Below, one piece after another: positions 1 to 7,380 of a stretch of 37,158 bases of DNA. Origin of the DNA: Minisyncoccota bacterium (GTDB lineage Bacteria; Patescibacteriota; Minisyncoccia; JAHIHE01; JAGLIN01). The notes beneath the pieces were generated by a model. That model was not told the DNA's origin, ran no database searches, and saw only the letters and a program-made list of their open reading frames with translations. How positions within the stretch are numbered: position 1 is the first letter of the stretch; each line of letters begins with the position of its first letter. The stretch lies in the NCBI GenBank assembly GCA_023142595.1, contig JAGLJF010000068.1, positions 1-37,158 of the forward strand. The letters run 5' to 3'. The translations under genes and the position numbers were made by a program.

Positions 1-710
1 TTGCCAGATCTAACTAGGCTATTTGAATTAATGTCCAATGCATTCAACGCCCAGATTACCCAAGCAGTGGAAGATGAATCGGAAGAAGAACCAGGATAAT
101 AAGGAAAGCCACCGTCATCATTTTGTAATGCCTGTAAAAATGATAAAGCGCTTTGAATTTGAGAATCAGAACTTTCAGTTCCAGAAGCAAGGAGCGCTAA
201 GATAGCAGCTGCAGTCATATTCGTATCAGAATTAGATGCAGTTGTGTAACCCCAACCACCATCACTATTTTGATGCGAAACAATAAAGTTTTTTGAATTA
301 ATGATAATTGGGTCAGCGCTTGATTCACCAGCAGATATTAAGGCTAAAATTCCAAAAATGTCATCATTAAGAATCAACGAGTCTCCAATTTGATTTTCTG
401 AATAATAATTTTGAAGAGAAGCCACATAATCAGTTGAAGCAAAAATACGTGGATTCTGGCCGAGAGAAGTTATAGCCAAAATAGGAGCTGCGTAGTCAAT
501 TGCATTTGTTCCATTCACAGAGAGAAGATGATTTGTGACAATGTTGGGACTTTCAAGCGCAGAGAGAGCCATTGTACTCCATGGATTATTACCATGTGCA
601 ATTAAATATGCTTGAGCATCGCTCGCATTATATGTCGCATTTGTTTCCAGAGGAGGAAGCATGGGAAATAATAACAAGGCAATGAGCATCGCGGATAATA
701 TTTTTTTCAT
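1..710 (-). CDS. Secreted prenyltransferase/squalene-oxidase-repeat (alpha/alpha toroid) protein, C-terminus cut off by window
   Basis: I read this frame directly from the complement; 236 residues are visible and the gene runs off the left edge. It starts at ATG 710-708, with an AAAGGA-type ribosome binding site about 8 bases upstream. Residues 1 to about 28 form a signal peptide (MKKILSAM, then a Leu-rich core ending near ETNA), so the product is exported. The rest is built of helical repeats with two QNxDGG-type motifs (SHQNSDGGWGY near residue 155 and LQNDDGGFPYY near 203), the hallmark of the terpenoid-cyclase/prenyltransferase toroid fold. Family knowledge: the same barrel forms the N-terminal domain of animal intrinsic factor and transcobalamin, and bacterial versions often carry a C-terminal DUF4430 domain. 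The cobalamin riboswitch just upstream suggests a surface or secreted corrinoid-binding protein. That function is inference, and the diagnostic C-terminal half lies outside the window. Confidence 0.85.
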   Translation of the reverse strand, partial: MKKILSAMLIALLLFPMLPPLETNATYNASDAQAYLIAHGNNPWSTMALSALESPNIVTNHLLSVNGTNAIDYAAPILAITSLGQNPRIFASTDYVASLQNYYSENQIGDSLILNDDIFGILALISAGESSADPIIINSKNFIVSHQNSDGGWGYTTASNSDTNMTAAAILALLASGTESSDSQIQSALSFLQALQNDDGGFPYYPGSSSDSSSTAWVIWALNALDINSNSLVRSG

Positions 711-735
711 ATGATTTCCTTTCTAAGGGTCTATA

Positions 736-772
736 AATAAAACAAGAACATCTCCACTTACAGAGGATGTTC
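736..772 (-). terminator. Terminator hairpin in the riboswitch expression platform
   Basis: Read on the minus strand, GAACATC (772-766) pairs with GATGTTC (752-746) and is followed by TTGTTTTATT. The hairpin lies between the cobalamin aptamer and the start codon at 710, where a transcriptional OFF switch is expected. Which upstream bases form the antiterminator is not clear by eye. Confidence 0.7.
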
Positions 773-844
773 ATTTTATCGTAACAAAAACAAAACGAAG
801 CCCCTCTTTAGCTCGAAGATAGGATCTTATTTATAGAATTGATA

Positions 845-960
845 GTTAGTTAGCATTCTGGCTTACTTTGTCTTTTAAGAGAACAAAGATTACAGTTGCG
901 GCACAGCACCGGATTTTTTCCAAACACTTTTTGAAATTCACCGGATTTTCCTAACCGACC
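845..960 (-). promoter_or_regulatory. Cobalamin (B12) riboswitch aptamer, compact form
   Basis: On the minus strand the order of conserved blocks is that of the cobalamin aptamer. GGTTAG opens stem P1 (956-951), followed by GGAAAATCCGGTGAA. After an insert comes AATCCGGTGCTGTGCCGCAA, then CTGTAA. A small TTTGT/ACAAA hairpin follows, and finally the B12 box AAGCCAGAATGC. CTAAC (853-849 or 849-845) closes P1. The peripheral P8-P12 domain of large aptamers is missing, which resembles the short class II forms; ligand preference (methyl/aquo- versus adenosylcobalamin) cannot be decided here. It controls the secreted toroid protein ending at 710. Confidence 0.9.
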
Positions 961-1047
961 TTTTTTACATTATGCTTTCTTAAAATATTTTTAAAAAAGT
1001 ATAAGTCAAAAAGAACTACCCTTGAATTAATTTGTTAAAGTAAGTTA

Positions 1048-1076
1048 ATATTAACTTTTGTTTCTGGTTATGTCAA
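1048..1076 (-). promoter_or_regulatory. Promoter for the B12-riboswitch transcript
   Basis: On the minus strand TTGACA (1076-1071) and TAATAT (1053-1048) are separated by 17 bases, close to the sigma-70 consensus. Transcription would start near 1041, about 80 bases before the aptamer. A second, weaker -10 (TATACT, 1003-998) lies nearer the aptamer. Confidence 0.65.
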
Positions 1077-1273: not shown

Positions 1274-1837
1274 TTATTTTTCAAAATTTTCCTCATGAAA
1301 AAATTCATGAATATCGCCGAAACAAACGATTAGACAAGCAAGATTTTGTTTCATTATTTCTTCATTTTTATTCCAGTCAAAATCTTTCATTTTCACAGGT
1401 GATTCTATTAAAAAATATTGAAAGAAAATTTCAGAAGGAATAATATTTTTTTCATATAAATCTTGATTTGTCATCTTCTCAAAATCGTCACGGGCTTCCA
1501 AATTTGCAAACTCAGCTAAACTACGAAACATTATATTAAAAAATAATTCATATAACTTTTCATATTCTTTTTTACTATAAAATTCTTTTGATAATTTACC
1601 CAATCTTTGCAACCTTTTTTTATTAGCAGATTTCTTTTCTGATTTCCCCGCTCTTTCCCACATAAGAAAAAAATTACTCACATCATTTTTTTCACTTAAT
1701 AATTCGTCAAAAACATATTTCAGGTCAACTTTTTTTAATAAATTTTGAATTGCTTTTTTATGTAAAATTGGATTTTTCTCTGAAAAATATCCATCAAAAG
1801 CAGCATCAAAATCTTTTGTCAGTTTATCTTTTTTCAT
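1274..1837 (-). CDS. Hypothetical protein, 187 residues
   Basis: An unrecognised, soluble, Lys/Glu/Phe-rich, mostly helical protein (MKKDKLTKDFDAAFDG...). It has no signal peptide, membrane segment or known catalytic motif. A basic stretch KSEKKSANKKRLQRLGK lies near residues 65-81 and an acidic, aromatic C-terminus ends in HEFFHEENFEK. No Shine-Dalgarno site precedes the ATG. It follows purM on the same strand after about 150 bases and could be read through from the purL-purM transcript, but nothing in it suggests a purine role. Confidence 0.6.
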   Translation of the reverse strand: MKKDKLTKDFDAAFDGYFSEKNPILHKKAIQNLLKKVDLKYVFDELLSEKNDVSNFFLMWERAGKSEKKSANKKRLQRLGKLSKEFYSKKEYEKLYELFFNIMFRSLAEFANLEARDDFEKMTNQDLYEKNIIPSEIFFQYFLIESPVKMKDFDWNKNEEIMKQNLACLIVCFGDIHEFFHEENFEK

Positions 1838-1988: not shown

Positions 1989-3005
1989 TTATTTTATAAA
2001 TGTTTTATTTTCACCATACACAATTTCTCCAATCAAAAAAGCGTTTTCAACAGTATCATTAGTAATTACCACAAGACCAATTCCATAATTAAAAGTTTTC
2101 ATCATTTCCAACTTTGAAATATTACCCTTTCTTTCAATTAATTTAAAAATTGCTGGCACTTCCCAAGAACCCTTATTTATTAAAGCTGAGCAATTTTCAG
2201 GTAATATTCTTGGAATATTTTCAATTAAACCACCTCCTGTGATATGCGCCAAACCAGCAATATCATAATTACTTATCATTTTCTTTATTTCTTTAACATA
2301 AATCTTAGTTGGTTCCATTAATTCCTCTCCTAAAGTTCTGTCAAGCTCGGGATAATTTGTATTAAGTATTTTTTTTGTCTCATCTGTTTTTTTCAAATCA
2401 ATTTCGAAAGTTTTTCGTGCCAAGCTATATCCGTTTGAATGAACTCCGCTTGATGGTAATCCATAAATCTTCATACCAACTTTGATTTTGTTTCCCGTAA
2501 TCAAATCTTCTTTTGAATTAGCAAATCCTACAGCAAAACCAGCTAGGTCATAGTCTTGCTCGCTGTACATATCTGGCATTTCAGCCATTTCACCACCCAA
2601 TAAAGCACATTCAGCTTGATGACAGCCTTCTATTATACCGTTCACGATTTTTTGGGTTCTTTGTGGTATTTGTTTTCCCATTGCAATATAGTCCAAAAAG
2701 GCAGCAGGTGTCAGACCAGCCACAGCAAGATCATTAACACACATTGCGACCAAGTCTATACCAACGGTCTCATGTCTATCCAAAACAATGCTCAATACTA
2801 ATTTCGTACCAACGCCATCAGTTGCCAGTCCCATAACCTTTCGATCAGAAAGTTCAACAATTCCACTAAATCCACCAATACCTGATAGAATTTTTCCAGG
2901 AAAATGTTTTAAAGTTTTTTCAGCTTGTTCTTTAATTAAATTTACAGCTTTATTACCTGCATTTATATCTACACCACTTTTCGCATAGTCCAGTGATTGA
3001 GTCAT
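1989..3005 (-). CDS. purM: Phosphoribosylformylglycinamidine cyclo-ligase (AIR synthetase)
   Basis: This enzyme closes the imidazole ring, converting FGAM plus ATP to AIR (5-aminoimidazole ribonucleotide) in the cytosol. The 338 residues match the usual length of about 345. Family motifs are visible: the ATDGVGTK nucleotide-binding segment (residues 61-68), the VNDLAVAGLTP block near 90-100, GGEMAEMPDMY near 138-148 and the Gly-rich HITGGGLIENIPR segment near 255-267. The C-terminal linker before IGEIVYGE is slightly shorter than usual. It starts 15 bases after the purL stop, with no Shine-Dalgarno site, so the two are almost certainly co-transcribed and carry out consecutive steps. Confidence 0.97.
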   Translation of the reverse strand: MTQSLDYAKSGVDINAGNKAVNLIKEQAEKTLKHFPGKILSGIGGFSGIVELSDRKVMGLATDGVGTKLVLSIVLDRHETVGIDLVAMCVNDLAVAGLTPAAFLDYIAMGKQIPQRTQKIVNGIIEGCHQAECALLGGEMAEMPDMYSEQDYDLAGFAVGFANSKEDLITGNKIKVGMKIYGLPSSGVHSNGYSLARKTFEIDLKKTDETKKILNTNYPELDRTLGEELMEPTKIYVKEIKKMISNYDIAGLAHITGGGLIENIPRILPENCSALINKGSWEVPAIFKLIERKGNISKLEMMKTFNYGIGLVVITNDTVENAFLIGEIVYGENKTFIK

Positions 3006-3020
3006 ATATTTAAATTTAAA

Positions 3021-6000
3021 TTAATTATTGCTAACCCAATTATAAGCATTTTGAAACATGGTAAGCCAAGGAGATGCTTCTATATCCTTGTTTAATTCTT
3101 TTGGCATCCATGGCCATTGCCATTTTAAAAATATTCTTTCGGGATGAGGCATCATTGCCAAGTGACGACCGTCAGGAGAACAGAGCGAAGCAATACCACC
3201 TACAGAGCCATTTGGATTAAATGGGTATTCTTCCGTTTCTTTTCCTTCATTATCAGCATAAACTAAAGGATTCAATTTTTGAGCAATCACTTTATTATAA
3301 ATTTCTGAATCAGAAAAGTGCAACCTTCCCTCTCCATGAGCAACCCAAATCCCAAGTATAGAACCTTCCATCCTCTTGAGCATTATAGATGGACTTTCTT
3401 TGATATTGACATTTACCCAGCGTGACTCAAATCTATTTGATTCATTGGTCATAAATCTAGGCTGTTTTTCAATATTAATATTTTTCCAAGGCAACCATCC
3501 AATTAATGACATTAATTGACAACCATTACATACCCCTAAGGAAAAAGTATTTTTCCTGTCATAGAATTCATCAAATATTTCTTTTAGTTTTTGATTAAAT
3601 TTAATTCCTCCAGCCCAGCCCTTCGCCGAACCAAGAGCGTCTGCATAAGAAAAACCTCCCACAAATGCCAAACCTCTAAATTTATCAAGTGCTATATTAC
3701 CATCAATTAAATCAGACATTTTAACATCCCACGCTTCAAAACCGGCGAGATGAAATGCACTTGCCATTTCTCTGTCGCCATTACTTCCCTCTTCACGAAT
3801 AATAGCAACTTTCGGTTTGTCTCTTTTGGCTAATATACTAGCAGATGTGTTAGCTGGTTTAAAAGTGACTTTATAAAATGGATTCTTTTGCTTATAAATA
3901 TTTTCCTTTTCACAAATTGCACTTTTTGAATTTGTTTGCAAGAGATTCAGCTGATGACTTGTTTCTTCCCATGTTTGTCTAAGACTAATCATCTCTGAGT
4001 TCAATATTTCTTTTCCATTATGAGAAATTTTTATTATGTCTTCTTTTGATGAAATTCCCAATTTAAAAATTACATTTTCTAAATTATATTTTTTAATTAT
4101 TTTCAAAAACTCATCTATTTTCAACTGATCAATTTCCATTGCATAACCAAGCTCTTCGTTAAAATAATAAGAAAGTTCGTCTGCTTTTGCTTCACTGTTA
4201 ATTTCCAACCCACAATTTCCTGCAAAAGTCATTTCTAATAAAGTTGTCACTAAACCACCGTCCGAACGATCATGTCCTGATAACACTAGATTTTTCTGGA
4301 TTAATTCTTGAACAGCTAAAAATAAATTTTTCAGCTGTTGGGTGTCATCTACATCTGGGGATTCATTTCCAATTTGAGACAATGTTTGAGCTAATGCTGA
4401 CCCACCTAATCTATTTTTTGAATTACCAAGGTCTATCAACCAAATTTCACTATTACCTGGCTCTTTTAAATCAGGGGTAATCGCTTTTTCAATGTCACTC
4501 ATTGGAGCATAAGCAGAAACAGTAAGTTCTCCTGGAGATTTTACAATTTCCTCGCCTACCCTATTGGCCATAGAGATGCTGTCCTTTCCTCCATCAATAG
4601 CAATACCAAGTTCAACCATAATGTCTCTCATCGCAATTGCAGCATCATAAATTCGAGATCCCTCACCAGGTAATTTAGCAGGCCACATCCAGTTCCCCGA
4701 ACATTTGATGTCAGAAAGAGAACTAATTTTTGCTGAAACAATATTTGTTATTGCCTCTCCTACAGACATTCTACTTCCTGCTTTTGGATTGACTAATATT
4801 TTGATTGGCTGTTCTCCAATCGAAATTGCCGCTCCACTTTTATCAAAATGAGTTTGTGCAATAATCGCGACATCTGAAACGGGAAGCTGTAGTGGTCCAC
4901 AACATTGCTGTCTTGCAATCAATCCAGTTACACTTCGGTCAACTTTTGTGACCAAAAATCTTTTTGAACATACGGAAGGTAGTTTTAAAACATTATTCAA
5001 CGCATTTTGAAATGTCAGTTGCGAAGGAATTTTAAGTGGACTAAGTTTCAAATTCATCCTCTTATCATGAAATTCTTTTTGTGGCATTTTCCCGAGTATC
5101 TTTGAAAGCTCTAAATTAACAGGAGTTGAATCATCACTACTGTCATGAACCACAATTTTTCTATCCCCCGTCACCTCTCCTAATAGTTCATAATCAGATC
5201 TTTCTCTTTTACAAATTTCTTTAAATAGTTCTAGCTTGGCAGGTTCAATTAAAAGCGCATTTCTTTCCTGAGATTCATTTCCCCAAATTTCCAAAACAGA
5301 CATCGTCTGGTCTCCTAATTGAATATTTCTAATTTCTACTCTGCCGCCAATCGGTTCGATTAATTCAGTAAGAACATTGCATGGTCCCCCAGCCCCCTGA
5401 TCATGAATGCTGATAATTGGATTATCATTCCCCATTTCCACACAAGCCCGAATGACGCGATTCATTTTTTGTTCAATTTCAGCATCTCCTCTTTGTACAG
5501 CATTAAAATCAAGTTCCGCCTTATTTTCCCCCTGAATCATGCTCGATGCTGAACCTCCACCCATGCCAATTCGATATACGGGTCCTCCAACTTGAATAAT
5601 TAGCATACCAACTTGAGGTTTATCTTTTTTAATATGAGCATCATCAATTTGTCCGATTCCACCAGAAAACAAAATCGGCTTAATCCATTCTTGCCTACTG
5701 CCATCAGGTAAATTTACTCCAAAAGAACGATTAAATCCTTGAATCAGAGGTTCTCCAAATTTATTACCATAATCAGAGACTCCATCACTTGCCTCAATTT
5801 GAATCTTCAATGGACTAGCCTTGTCTTCTGGATATTTGAAATCATAATTTTCTCCTGCAATTTTGTAATTCGGAATATTCAAATTACCAACTGCATAGCC
5901 AGTCGTGCCAGCAATCACCAAAGCACCTTTTCCAGTTGCCTGCACATCTCTGATTCGTCCACCTCCGCCAGTGGCAGCACCTGGGAATGGAGACACTCCA

Positions 6001-6836
6001 GTTGGAAAATTATGAGTCTCTGCGGTAAAAATAAAATGATATTTGCACTTTTTATTCTGAAAAGCAGAAGACGCAACTGCACTATCAGGTACAATCGTCT
6101 CAACATCAAATCCTTTTATTGCACTCGAATTATCTTTGAAAGCAATTAGACTATTTGAAATATTTTTTTTCAATGGATATTGCACAGCTTGAAACAAAGT
6201 TTCTTTCATTTCTTGTCCGTCAATTATAATTTTACCTCGAAAAAACCAATGCCTAGAATGTTCACTATTTGCTTGTCCTAATTGAAAACATTCAACACTG
6301 GTTGGATTTCTTTTAATATCATTAAGAAATAAATCATAATAATAATGTTCATCCCAGTCATCCATGCCAAGTCCCATATCTTTGTTGATTTTTTTTAATG
6401 CACCAATTCCACTTTCAATGATTTGTACTTCATAGACAGAGTCTGGCTTTTTATTACTCTTAAAGCTTTCTAACGTTTTATCATATCTGGTTTCTGTCAT
6501 CTTGTCGCAATGCTTGGAAAGAAACTCTTTCTCATTTTCGGTGTTGTTTAAGATAGTTCTCTGAGACTTTTCAATTCTGGTAATTTTATCTAAACCACAA
6601 TTATGGCAAACTGAAACAGCATTCGTTGAAAAAGAAGTGGCAAAACTCAGGTTAGGACCAATTTCAATTATATTTTCAGAATCAAGGTTGGTGTCTTTAC
6701 TTATTTTTTCTTCTTCGAATCCTTCCGCAAGCAATTTGGACAAAATCTCAATCTCACTTTGGTCCAATGGTTCACTGGCTTCTATATTGTAACAAATCTC
6801 ATTTTTTTTATCCTTAGGACTATAGAATTGATACAT
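3021..6836 (-). CDS. purL: Phosphoribosylformylglycinamidine synthase, large single-chain form
   Basis: It makes FGAM from FGAR, glutamine and ATP. At 1271 residues it is the long form found in proteobacteria and eukaryotes, with the N-terminal PurS-like part, the two AIR-synthase-like halves and the glutaminase in one chain; Gram-positive bacteria and archaea use separate PurS, PurL and PurQ. Visible blocks include ETHNFPTGVSPFPGAATGGGGR near 270-295 and HDQGAGGP near 475. The class I glutamine amidotransferase at the C-terminus has its nucleophile in GVCNGCQ near residue 1100 and the His/Glu pair in PHPERIF near 1230. There is no Shine-Dalgarno site. It lies 13 bases after the upstream ATPase gene and 15 before purM, so the three form one unit. 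Confidence 0.97.
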   Translation of the reverse strand: MYQFYSPKDKKNEICYNIEASEPLDQSEIEILSKLLAEGFEEEKISKDTNLDSENIIEIGPNLSFATSFSTNAVSVCHNCGLDKITRIEKSQRTILNNTENEKEFLSKHCDKMTETRYDKTLESFKSNKKPDSVYEVQIIESGIGALKKINKDMGLGMDDWDEHYYYDLFLNDIKRNPTSVECFQLGQANSEHSRHWFFRGKIIIDGQEMKETLFQAVQYPLKKNISNSLIAFKDNSSAIKGFDVETIVPDSAVASSAFQNKKCKYHFIFTAETHNFPTGVSPFPGAATGGGGRIRDVQATGKGALVIAGTTGYAVGNLNIPNYKIAGENYDFKYPEDKASPLKIQIEASDGVSDYGNKFGEPLIQGFNRSFGVNLPDGSRQEWIKPILFSGGIGQIDDAHIKKDKPQVGMLIIQVGGPVYRIGMGGGSASSMIQGENKAELDFNAVQRGDAEIEQKMNRVIRACVEMGNDNPIISIHDQGAGGPCNVLTELIEPIGGRVEIRNIQLGDQTMSVLEIWGNESQERNALLIEPAKLELFKEICKRERSDYELLGEVTGDRKIVVHDSSDDSTPVNLELSKILGKMPQKEFHDKRMNLKLSPLKIPSQLTFQNALNNVLKLPSVCSKRFLVTKVDRSVTGLIARQQCCGPLQLPVSDVAIIAQTHFDKSGAAISIGEQPIKILVNPKAGSRMSVGEAITNIVSAKISSLSDIKCSGNWMWPAKLPGEGSRIYDAAIAMRDIMVELGIAIDGGKDSISMANRVGEEIVKSPGELTVSAYAPMSDIEKAITPDLKEPGNSEIWLIDLGNSKNRLGGSALAQTLSQIGNESPDVDDTQQLKNLFLAVQELIQKNLVLSGHDRSDGGLVTTLLEMTFAGNCGLEINSEAKADELSYYFNEELGYAMEIDQLKIDEFLKIIKKYNLENVIFKLGISSKEDIIKISHNGKEILNSEMISLRQTWEETSHQLNLLQTNSKSAICEKENIYKQKNPFYKVTFKPANTSASILAKRDKPKVAIIREEGSNGDREMASAFHLAGFEAWDVKMSDLIDGNIALDKFRGLAFVGGFSYADALGSAKGWAGGIKFNQKLKEIFDEFYDRKNTFSLGVCNGCQLMSLIGWLPWKNINIEKQPRFMTNESNRFESRWVNVNIKESPSIMLKRMEGSILGIWVAHGEGRLHFSDSEIYNKVIAQKLNPLVYADNEGKETEEYPFNPNGSVGGIASLCSPDGRHLAMMPHPERIFLKWQWPWMPKELNKDIEASPWLTMFQNAYNWVSNN

Positions 6837-6849
6837 AGATTTATAATTA

Positions 6850-7380
6850 TTACAAATTATTTAAAATAAATTTTAGTCTTTCTTCTACTGAATTCATTTT
6901 TGAAACTTCGACCATTGGAATATTTATTTTTTCATAAACATCCTTCAATAATCCATGAAGCTTAATCTGCTCTCCTTTACTTTCAGTGCGTGAATAATCC
7001 TTCTTATATGGCAAGTAGTCAAGCAAAAAGACTTTTTTATACACTGAATTTTCTATAGCTTTTTTTAAATTAACATCTGATGCTATTCCTTGTAATTTAT
7101 AATAAGCATCGCTATCAGGAATGCCTCTGTCCCAAAAAACAATATCTTCTTTAGGTATTTTTCTTTCAAGCTCTATCTTAATTTCTAGAATCTTTTTTTG
7201 AAAGCTAATTTCGTTGTTTCTAATATTTTTTAGCTCTTTTCCTCTTGCTATTTCTTTATCAATATAGATCCTTGCAGCTTCGTCTATGGTTCTATATCCA
7301 TTGCTAGCTAATAATTTGATTAGAGTTGATTTTCCAGAATTTGGAGCTCCTGTTATTATATACCAGTTATTTGAATTCAT
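6850..7380 (-). CDS. Small P-loop ATPase (AAA_28 / NadR-kinase-like)
   Basis: A 176-residue nucleotide-binding protein. The Walker A motif GAPNSGKST is at residues 11-19. An early TIDEAARIYID motif and a central FWDRGIPDSDAYY motif (about 103-115) are typical of the AAA_28 group of small predicted ATPases and kinases. A C-terminal segment supplies the remaining strands and the lid. The substrate is unknown; small-molecule phosphorylation is plausible but not shown. It is the first gene of the purL-purM unit, 13 bases upstream of purL. A -10-like TATAAT at 7396-7391 lies only about 10 bases before the start codon, so the message may be nearly leaderless. Confidence 0.75.
   Translation of the reverse strand: MNSNNWYIITGAPNSGKSTLIKLLASNGYRTIDEAARIYIDKEIARGKELKNIRNNEISFQKKILEIKIELERKIPKEDIVFWDRGIPDSDAYYKLQGIASDVNLKKAIENSVYKKVFLLDYLPYKKDYSRTESKGEQIKLHGLLKDVYEKINIPMVEVSKMNSVEERLKFILNNL

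Follow-up and report, generated by a model that had tools for sequence, protein, structure and literature searches.

A probable riboswitch-controlled vitamin B12 capture gene in an uncultured Parcubacteria bacterium

What would a tiny, uncultured bacterium gain from a gene that encodes an exported, toroid-fold protein and stands behind a leader resembling a cobalamin riboswitch? We addressed this question in a window of 37,158 bases, which is one entire contig (C65) of a 1.04-Mb, 98%-complete genome whose relatives bear the labels Parcubacteria and Paceibacterota. A first-pass annotation made from the letters of this DNA had named a promoter, a B12 aptamer, a terminator and an exported toroid protein. 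All of these elements are present, on the minus strand, in the order promoter (1076-1048), aptamer (962-841), P13 hairpin, terminator (772-746) and toroid open reading frame (ORF; 710-3). Our reading, based on sequence comparison and held at a probability of about 0.85, is that the locus holds a gene for capturing vitamin B12 (a corrinoid) under riboswitch control, with a leader that would act as an off-switch, an exported toroid-DUF4430 product and hand-over of the ligand at the membrane. The bacterium thereby probably scavenges B12 from outside.

Scavenging itself was predicted in 2007, when Burroughs et al. described bacterial transcobalamin-type domains fused to toroids and encoded next to CbiO/CbiQ, and proposed a role in B12 scavenging (PMC1796856). 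Their survey covered Gram-positives, planctomycetes and some archaea, and the word riboswitch is absent from it (PMC1796856). Our literature search, with most subscription papers outside its scope, found no paper joining Patescibacteria or the Candidate Phyla Radiation (CPR) with a cobalamin riboswitch, and none on DUF6580. The novelties here are the occurrence in CPR, the riboswitch, the antiterminator and DUF6580 as probable membrane partner. Together they offer a concrete candidate route to an expensive vitamin that some candidate-phyla bacteria are not expected to make.

The exported toroid protein and its C-terminal half

The ORF at 3..710 (minus strand) encodes the first 236 of about 600 residues of a secreted alpha/alpha-toroid protein and is truncated at the contig end. 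Its N-terminus, MKKILSAMLIALLLFPMLPPLETNA, is signal-peptide-like over about residues 1-25 (judged by eye) and is followed by prenyltransferase/squalene-cyclase toroid repeats, with matches to PF13243 (E 5e-11) and PF00432 (E 8e-8). This agrees with the exported toroid-fold protein that had been proposed. PF01122, the eukaryotic cobalamin-binding protein family, did not match the window protein even with E allowed to reach 1, and matched the Chloroflexi homologue L037 weakly (0.005).

The C-terminal half of the gene lies off the contig, and a search of the same genome found no second toroid-linked DUF4430 elsewhere, so the domain make-up of this half is taken from relatives. Most full-length relatives have a length of about 600 residues, and the nearest (L010, genome G002) is 87% identical across the part present in the window. 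DUF4430 lies C-terminal to the toroid, above cut-off, in all eight relatives scanned. The first-pass annotation had staked its inference of corrinoid binding on this domain; in the relatives it is not of an unrelated class, but a homologue of the transcobalamin beta-domain. The DUF4430 of L010 on its own matched human transcobalamin-2 at E 7.8e-5, and at 8e-6 when a profile was used.

We also compared a predicted full-length structure of a relative (pLDDT 83.9) with the PDB. Its 15 best matches were transcobalamin, intrinsic factor and haptocorrin, with prenyltransferases and cyclases ranking after them, and the best match had an E of 8.8e-12 over more than 400 aligned columns. TM-scores against the B12 carriers were low (0.25-0.45), with an rmsd of about 20 Å, and the matches therefore show homology part by part, with the parts in matching order, not one rigid match. 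Differing domain placement and the extra Ig-like domains of the model probably account for the low TM-score.

Like intrinsic factor, transcobalamin and haptocorrin, the bacterial protein is secreted and has an N-terminal alpha/alpha toroid followed by a DUF4430 of the transcobalamin beta type. It differs from these animal carriers in its length of about 600 residues, its added Ig-like domains, an identity of about 15%, a toroid outside the reach of PF01122, and a gene controlled by a riboswitch; its B12 binding is predicted. As in intrinsic factor, the toroid and the C-terminal DUF4430 would clasp a corrinoid between them. The Ig-like domains, together with the Ig-like, membrane-anchored protein encoded by the next gene, would keep the product at the cell surface.

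The same Ig-like domains suggest attachment to a surface, and a real riboswitch could instead control a protein that binds no corrinoid: a surface adhesion or cell-wall protein whose toroid and DUF4430 serve another small molecule or sugar, with B12 acting only as a cue from the environment or host. The failure to find a B12-dependent enzyme in the genome (see below) would fit such a protein, as would a caution raised by a reviewer of the 2007 paper that DUF4430/SLBB domains possibly serve several ligands (PMC1796856). We nevertheless regard this explanation as unlikely, because the two domains of the B12 carriers occur here in their proper order, the joint model matches B12 carriers first, and homologues are found in ECF operons preceded by this switch and, in other CPR, beside B12 enzymes. 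The B12-capture reading of the first-pass annotation is instead the one supported by the DUF4430 domains and riboswitches of the relatives and by the fold matches to B12 carriers, with corrinoid binding as its predicted element and host attachment as a possible one.

The leader: aptamer, terminator and predicted switch

A sigma-70-type promoter, TTGACA-17-TAATAT, is located at 1048..1076 (minus strand). With 10 of 12 consensus matches it is the good promoter originally described, and a near-consensus promoter also lies 5' of the aptamer in most relatives (L010, L011, L013, L014, L018, L026, L029 and others). At the other end of the leader, the ribosome-binding site and start codon, AGAAAGGAAATCATATG, were assigned from sequence at 708..724 (minus strand). 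The region 5' of the promoter holds a 187-aa ORF (1274-1837, minus strand) with no matches in Pfam or NCBIfam.

The aptamer, at 841..962 (minus strand), is short and class-II-like, with helices P2, P4 (carrying an inserted hairpin), P5 and P6. Its conserved core, CTGTGCCGCAACTGTAA, at 890..906 (minus strand), consists of the P5 loop and the start of P6 and was placed by a pattern scan across loci (alignment A3). The first-pass annotation had looked to RF00174 for confirmation, and the window's own aptamer did not provide it: RF00174 had no matches genome-wide at E <= 0.001, an Rfam scan of the window returned no riboswitches above threshold, and no family of Rfam clan CL00101 reached its gathering threshold. 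For RF01689 the score was 25.8 bits, against a gathering score of 36.5, with an E of 9e-4 over the 501 bases scanned. This shortfall was overturned by relatives and by independent covariance models. The leaders of L011 and L013, which are 69%-identical relatives, passed RF00174 (33.2 against a cut-off of 31.5), as did those of L015, L018, L026, L030, L032 and L033. RF01482 was passed by L016, L017, L024 and L034, RF01689 by L019 and L008, and the non-CPR leaders L037 and L089 also passed Rfam riboswitch thresholds. A covariance model built from 17 relatives with the window left out (R1) scored the window at 76.8 bits (E 3.6e-24), and a second model (R2), from which every member of the window's family was left out, scored it at 63.3 bits (E 8.8e-19), both E-values being rough owing to a short calibration. 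In short, the window copy shares its core, P4-P6 and P13 hairpin with RF00174, RF01482 and RF01689, and differs from them in being short, A+T-rich and sub-threshold, with an extra hairpin in P4.

The core and the P2, P4, P5 and P6 helices are backed by covariation, both in the alignment and through R1 and R2. The share of cells that pair is 92.4% in the 19-row alignment and falls to 30-47% once the partner is shifted by 1-3 columns, a control that favours the structure, which was drawn up after viewing these sequences and the Rfam consensus. Changes on both sides of a pair occupy 83 cells of the same alignment, compared with 29 in shuffles. Compensatory swaps include U-A and A-U exchanged in P5, and CUG/CAG, CGG/CCG and CAG/CUG in P6. 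For the model alignments (A2, A3 and A5) the P4 insert was excised from five rows, or seven including the window and L010; in the MAFFT alignment (A1) the inserted hairpin had pushed the P4 arms out of register. The covariance models were scored on full sequences with the P4 insert included. Figures for P2 are low estimates, because its 5' arm is off by one column in about six rows of A2, A3 and A5. The leader is also more stable than shuffled versions of itself (z -3.1), and its aptamer was the sole cobalamin aptamer found in the genome. Matches of mir-202 and other small Rfam families at 955-1028 were rejected as chance hits to an A+T-rich stem.

A P13-like hairpin region, CCTATCTTCGAGCTAAAGAGGGGCTTCG, at 796..823 (minus strand), is conserved 3' of the aptamer, and its 3' side is complementary to the 5' arm of an intrinsic terminator at 735..772 (minus strand). 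This terminator, which had been claimed from the start, was overlooked by a simple consensus scan, yet it is clear as a stem-loop (772-746) with a T-rich tail and recurs in relatives. Most relatives share the order of aptamer, P13-like hairpin and terminator, at the same position. The ligand-free minimum-energy fold of the window leader is the antiterminator (-61.9 kcal/mol), in which 807-802 pair with 762-767 and 799-789 with 770-780; forcing the terminator gives a fold 7.9 kcal/mol worse. Across 17 leaders, the P13 segments paired with their own terminators at a summed -202.6 kcal/mol, against -148.7 (sd 9.0) with terminators swapped, for segments that were picked by hand once the complementarity had been seen. 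None of 20,000 permutations reached the own-pair energy, and this holds with a single member of the window's family kept; for the window's own P13 segment, the native terminator ranks 5 of 17 by pairing.

From these pairings we infer a transcriptional off-switch, with its direction and ligand predicted from sequence. At low cobalamin, the 3' side of P13 would pair with the 5' arm of the terminator to form the antiterminator, and the gene would be transcribed. With cobalamin bound, the aptamer would hold P13, the terminator would form and transcription would end. The sub-threshold Rfam scores, and a genome with no known use for B12, could also be expected of a degenerate remnant, that is, an aptamer without cobalamin binding that the lineage retains as a constitutive leader. 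We consider this highly improbable, given that the core, P4, P5 and P6 are intact, that compensatory changes (CCAG/CTGG and TCGG/CCGG) occur within the family, and that the terminator arms co-vary between the window and L010.

Gene neighbourhoods and a candidate membrane partner

We then compared the locus with its relatives. The top of the best 80 loci comprises 24 with a toroid-DUF4430 gene (23 CPR-like and one labelled Woesearchaeota, an archaeon), and a riboswitch lies 5' of the gene in 23; L031 starts at a contig edge. Within the window's own family, a riboswitch was found in all six genomes that have the toroid gene and in none of the eight without it, weak hits (E >= 0.009) aside. This association gives independent support to the 2007 prediction of B12 binding, and it extends over candidate-phyla bacteria, Clostridia and Chloroflexi, in all of which a B12 riboswitch controls the two-domain clasp known from animal B12 carriers. 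We rejected as barely credible the reading of the product as an exported enzyme of the terpene cyclase or prenyltransferase-like kind with a riboswitch in front of it by chance: squalene-hopene cyclase profiles are the best matches to the toroid alone, but the protein has a signal-peptide-like N-terminus and, after the toroid, DUF4430, the DxDD cyclase motif is absent from all 21 sequences (the window protein and 20 relatives), the fold search places transcobalamin and intrinsic factor ahead of cyclases, and such riboswitches are almost absent from toroid loci that have neither DUF4430 nor ECF genes (mostly L066-L088, proteobacterial and other).

The capture gene has homologues in settings already linked to B12. 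In Clostridia, the toroid gene has as neighbours a DUF4430 gene and a set of ECF genes (CbiQ-type T component, double ATPase, S component), and the Chloroflexi loci resemble this arrangement. These are operons of exactly the kind described for the 2007 SLBB proteins, which are likewise exported and have the same domain pair (PMC1796856). The CPR copies examined differ: they have no adjoining ECF T and ATPase genes, whose place is taken by the gene of an Ig-like membrane protein and, at some loci, by a DUF4430-DUF6580 pair. At 19 CPR loci, the gene after the toroid gene encodes a small Ig-like protein that is exported and has a membrane helix at its C-terminus (assigned by eye), and at several the DUF4430-DUF6580 pair lies 3' of the toroid gene. 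ABC genes found 3' in L011 and L013 were considered as ECF genes and rejected as GldA-like.

Other neighbours of the CPR toroid copies or DUF4430-DUF6580 pairs are enzymes. NrdJ adjoins them in L014 and L028, an RTPR-like class II ribonucleotide reductase (RNR) in L016 and G033/L134, and an adenosyltransferase, either PduO (L028, L134) or CobA (L026), is also found beside them. In L134 (genome G033, 2970-6900), genes for an RTPR-like class II RNR, PduO adenosyltransferase, DUF4430 and DUF6580 stand side by side, a cluster that ties DUF4430-DUF6580 to the use of adenosylcobalamin. Separately, a 3 kb contig in a CPR genome bin (L211, G017 contig C127) has two cobalamin riboswitch hits 5' of a TonB-receptor-like ORF; this contig is probably contamination.

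The window's own genome encodes one further DUF4430 protein (152 aa), directly followed by a DUF6580 protein (203 aa), inside a ribosomal operon between rplK and rplA (L127:7352-8372, plus strand, G000 contig C20). The pair is found in the same place in further genomes of this family, and the rplK/rplA neighbours also occur in a neighbouring family; no riboswitch was found at this pair. DUF4430 is present in all 11 genomes with an above-cut-off DUF6580 match. A DUF6580 model built from L026, of moderate confidence (pLDDT 65, pTM 0.60), had ECF S components, which have a six-helix fold, or ECF complexes as its eight best PDB matches, with FolT at a probability of 0.99 but an E of 0.33. The Clostridial S component at L049:6422-7321, which belongs to a B12-type operon, matches DUF6580 above cut-off (1.5e-6) as well as PF07155 and PF12822, which suggests that DUF6580 falls in the S-component superfamily.

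DUF6580 would thus be the counterpart of an S component, and a candidate one for B12. The captured ligand would probably be passed on to a membrane unit, for which the DUF4430-DUF6580 pair elsewhere in the genome is the likeliest candidate. Such a unit would recall ECF-CbrT and BtuM (PMC5997447, PMC6072759), in that these involve small S-component-like membrane proteins and the modelled DUF6580 fold resembles S components. Unlike them, DUF6580 has an exported DUF4430 protein as its own partner, and its role in B12 uptake is a prediction; a BtuM-like cysteine is not conserved across all aligned DUF6580 copies.

B12 use in the genome

Capture of B12 raises the question of what purpose the vitamin serves in a genome with no known B12 enzyme among those searched. 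Searches of the window's own genome found none of NrdJ_Z, the RNR barrel PF02867, the L014 RNR or the RTPR-like RNR core, and none of PF02310, PduO or QueG, with positive controls detected in these B12-enzyme family searches. The RTPR-like RNR search matched only the ATP-cone part, inside a class III NrdD, and the ribonucleotide reductase found in the genome is of class III. Class III ribonucleotide reductases do not require B12. That no class II RNR, PF02310, QueG or PduO was found counts against our capture reading, which leaves the use of the vitamin unexplained. The family may import corrinoids by means of the capture protein and a new DUF4430-DUF6580 importer while holding an unrecognised B12-dependent enzyme or other use, a combined proposal that we offer as a tentative and rather doubtful one.

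The class III reductase of the family also looks split. Its NrdD ORFs (577-580 aa; L183:4998-6740, minus strand, G000 contig C7, and L184:2232-3965, minus strand) correspond to positions 2-553 of the 684-position model and end before the glycyl-radical domain, with NrdG2 following them. A 145-aa gene located apart in G013, close to ftsE/ftsX and prfB (L188:6708-7145, minus strand, contig C4), corresponds to NrdD model positions 553-682.
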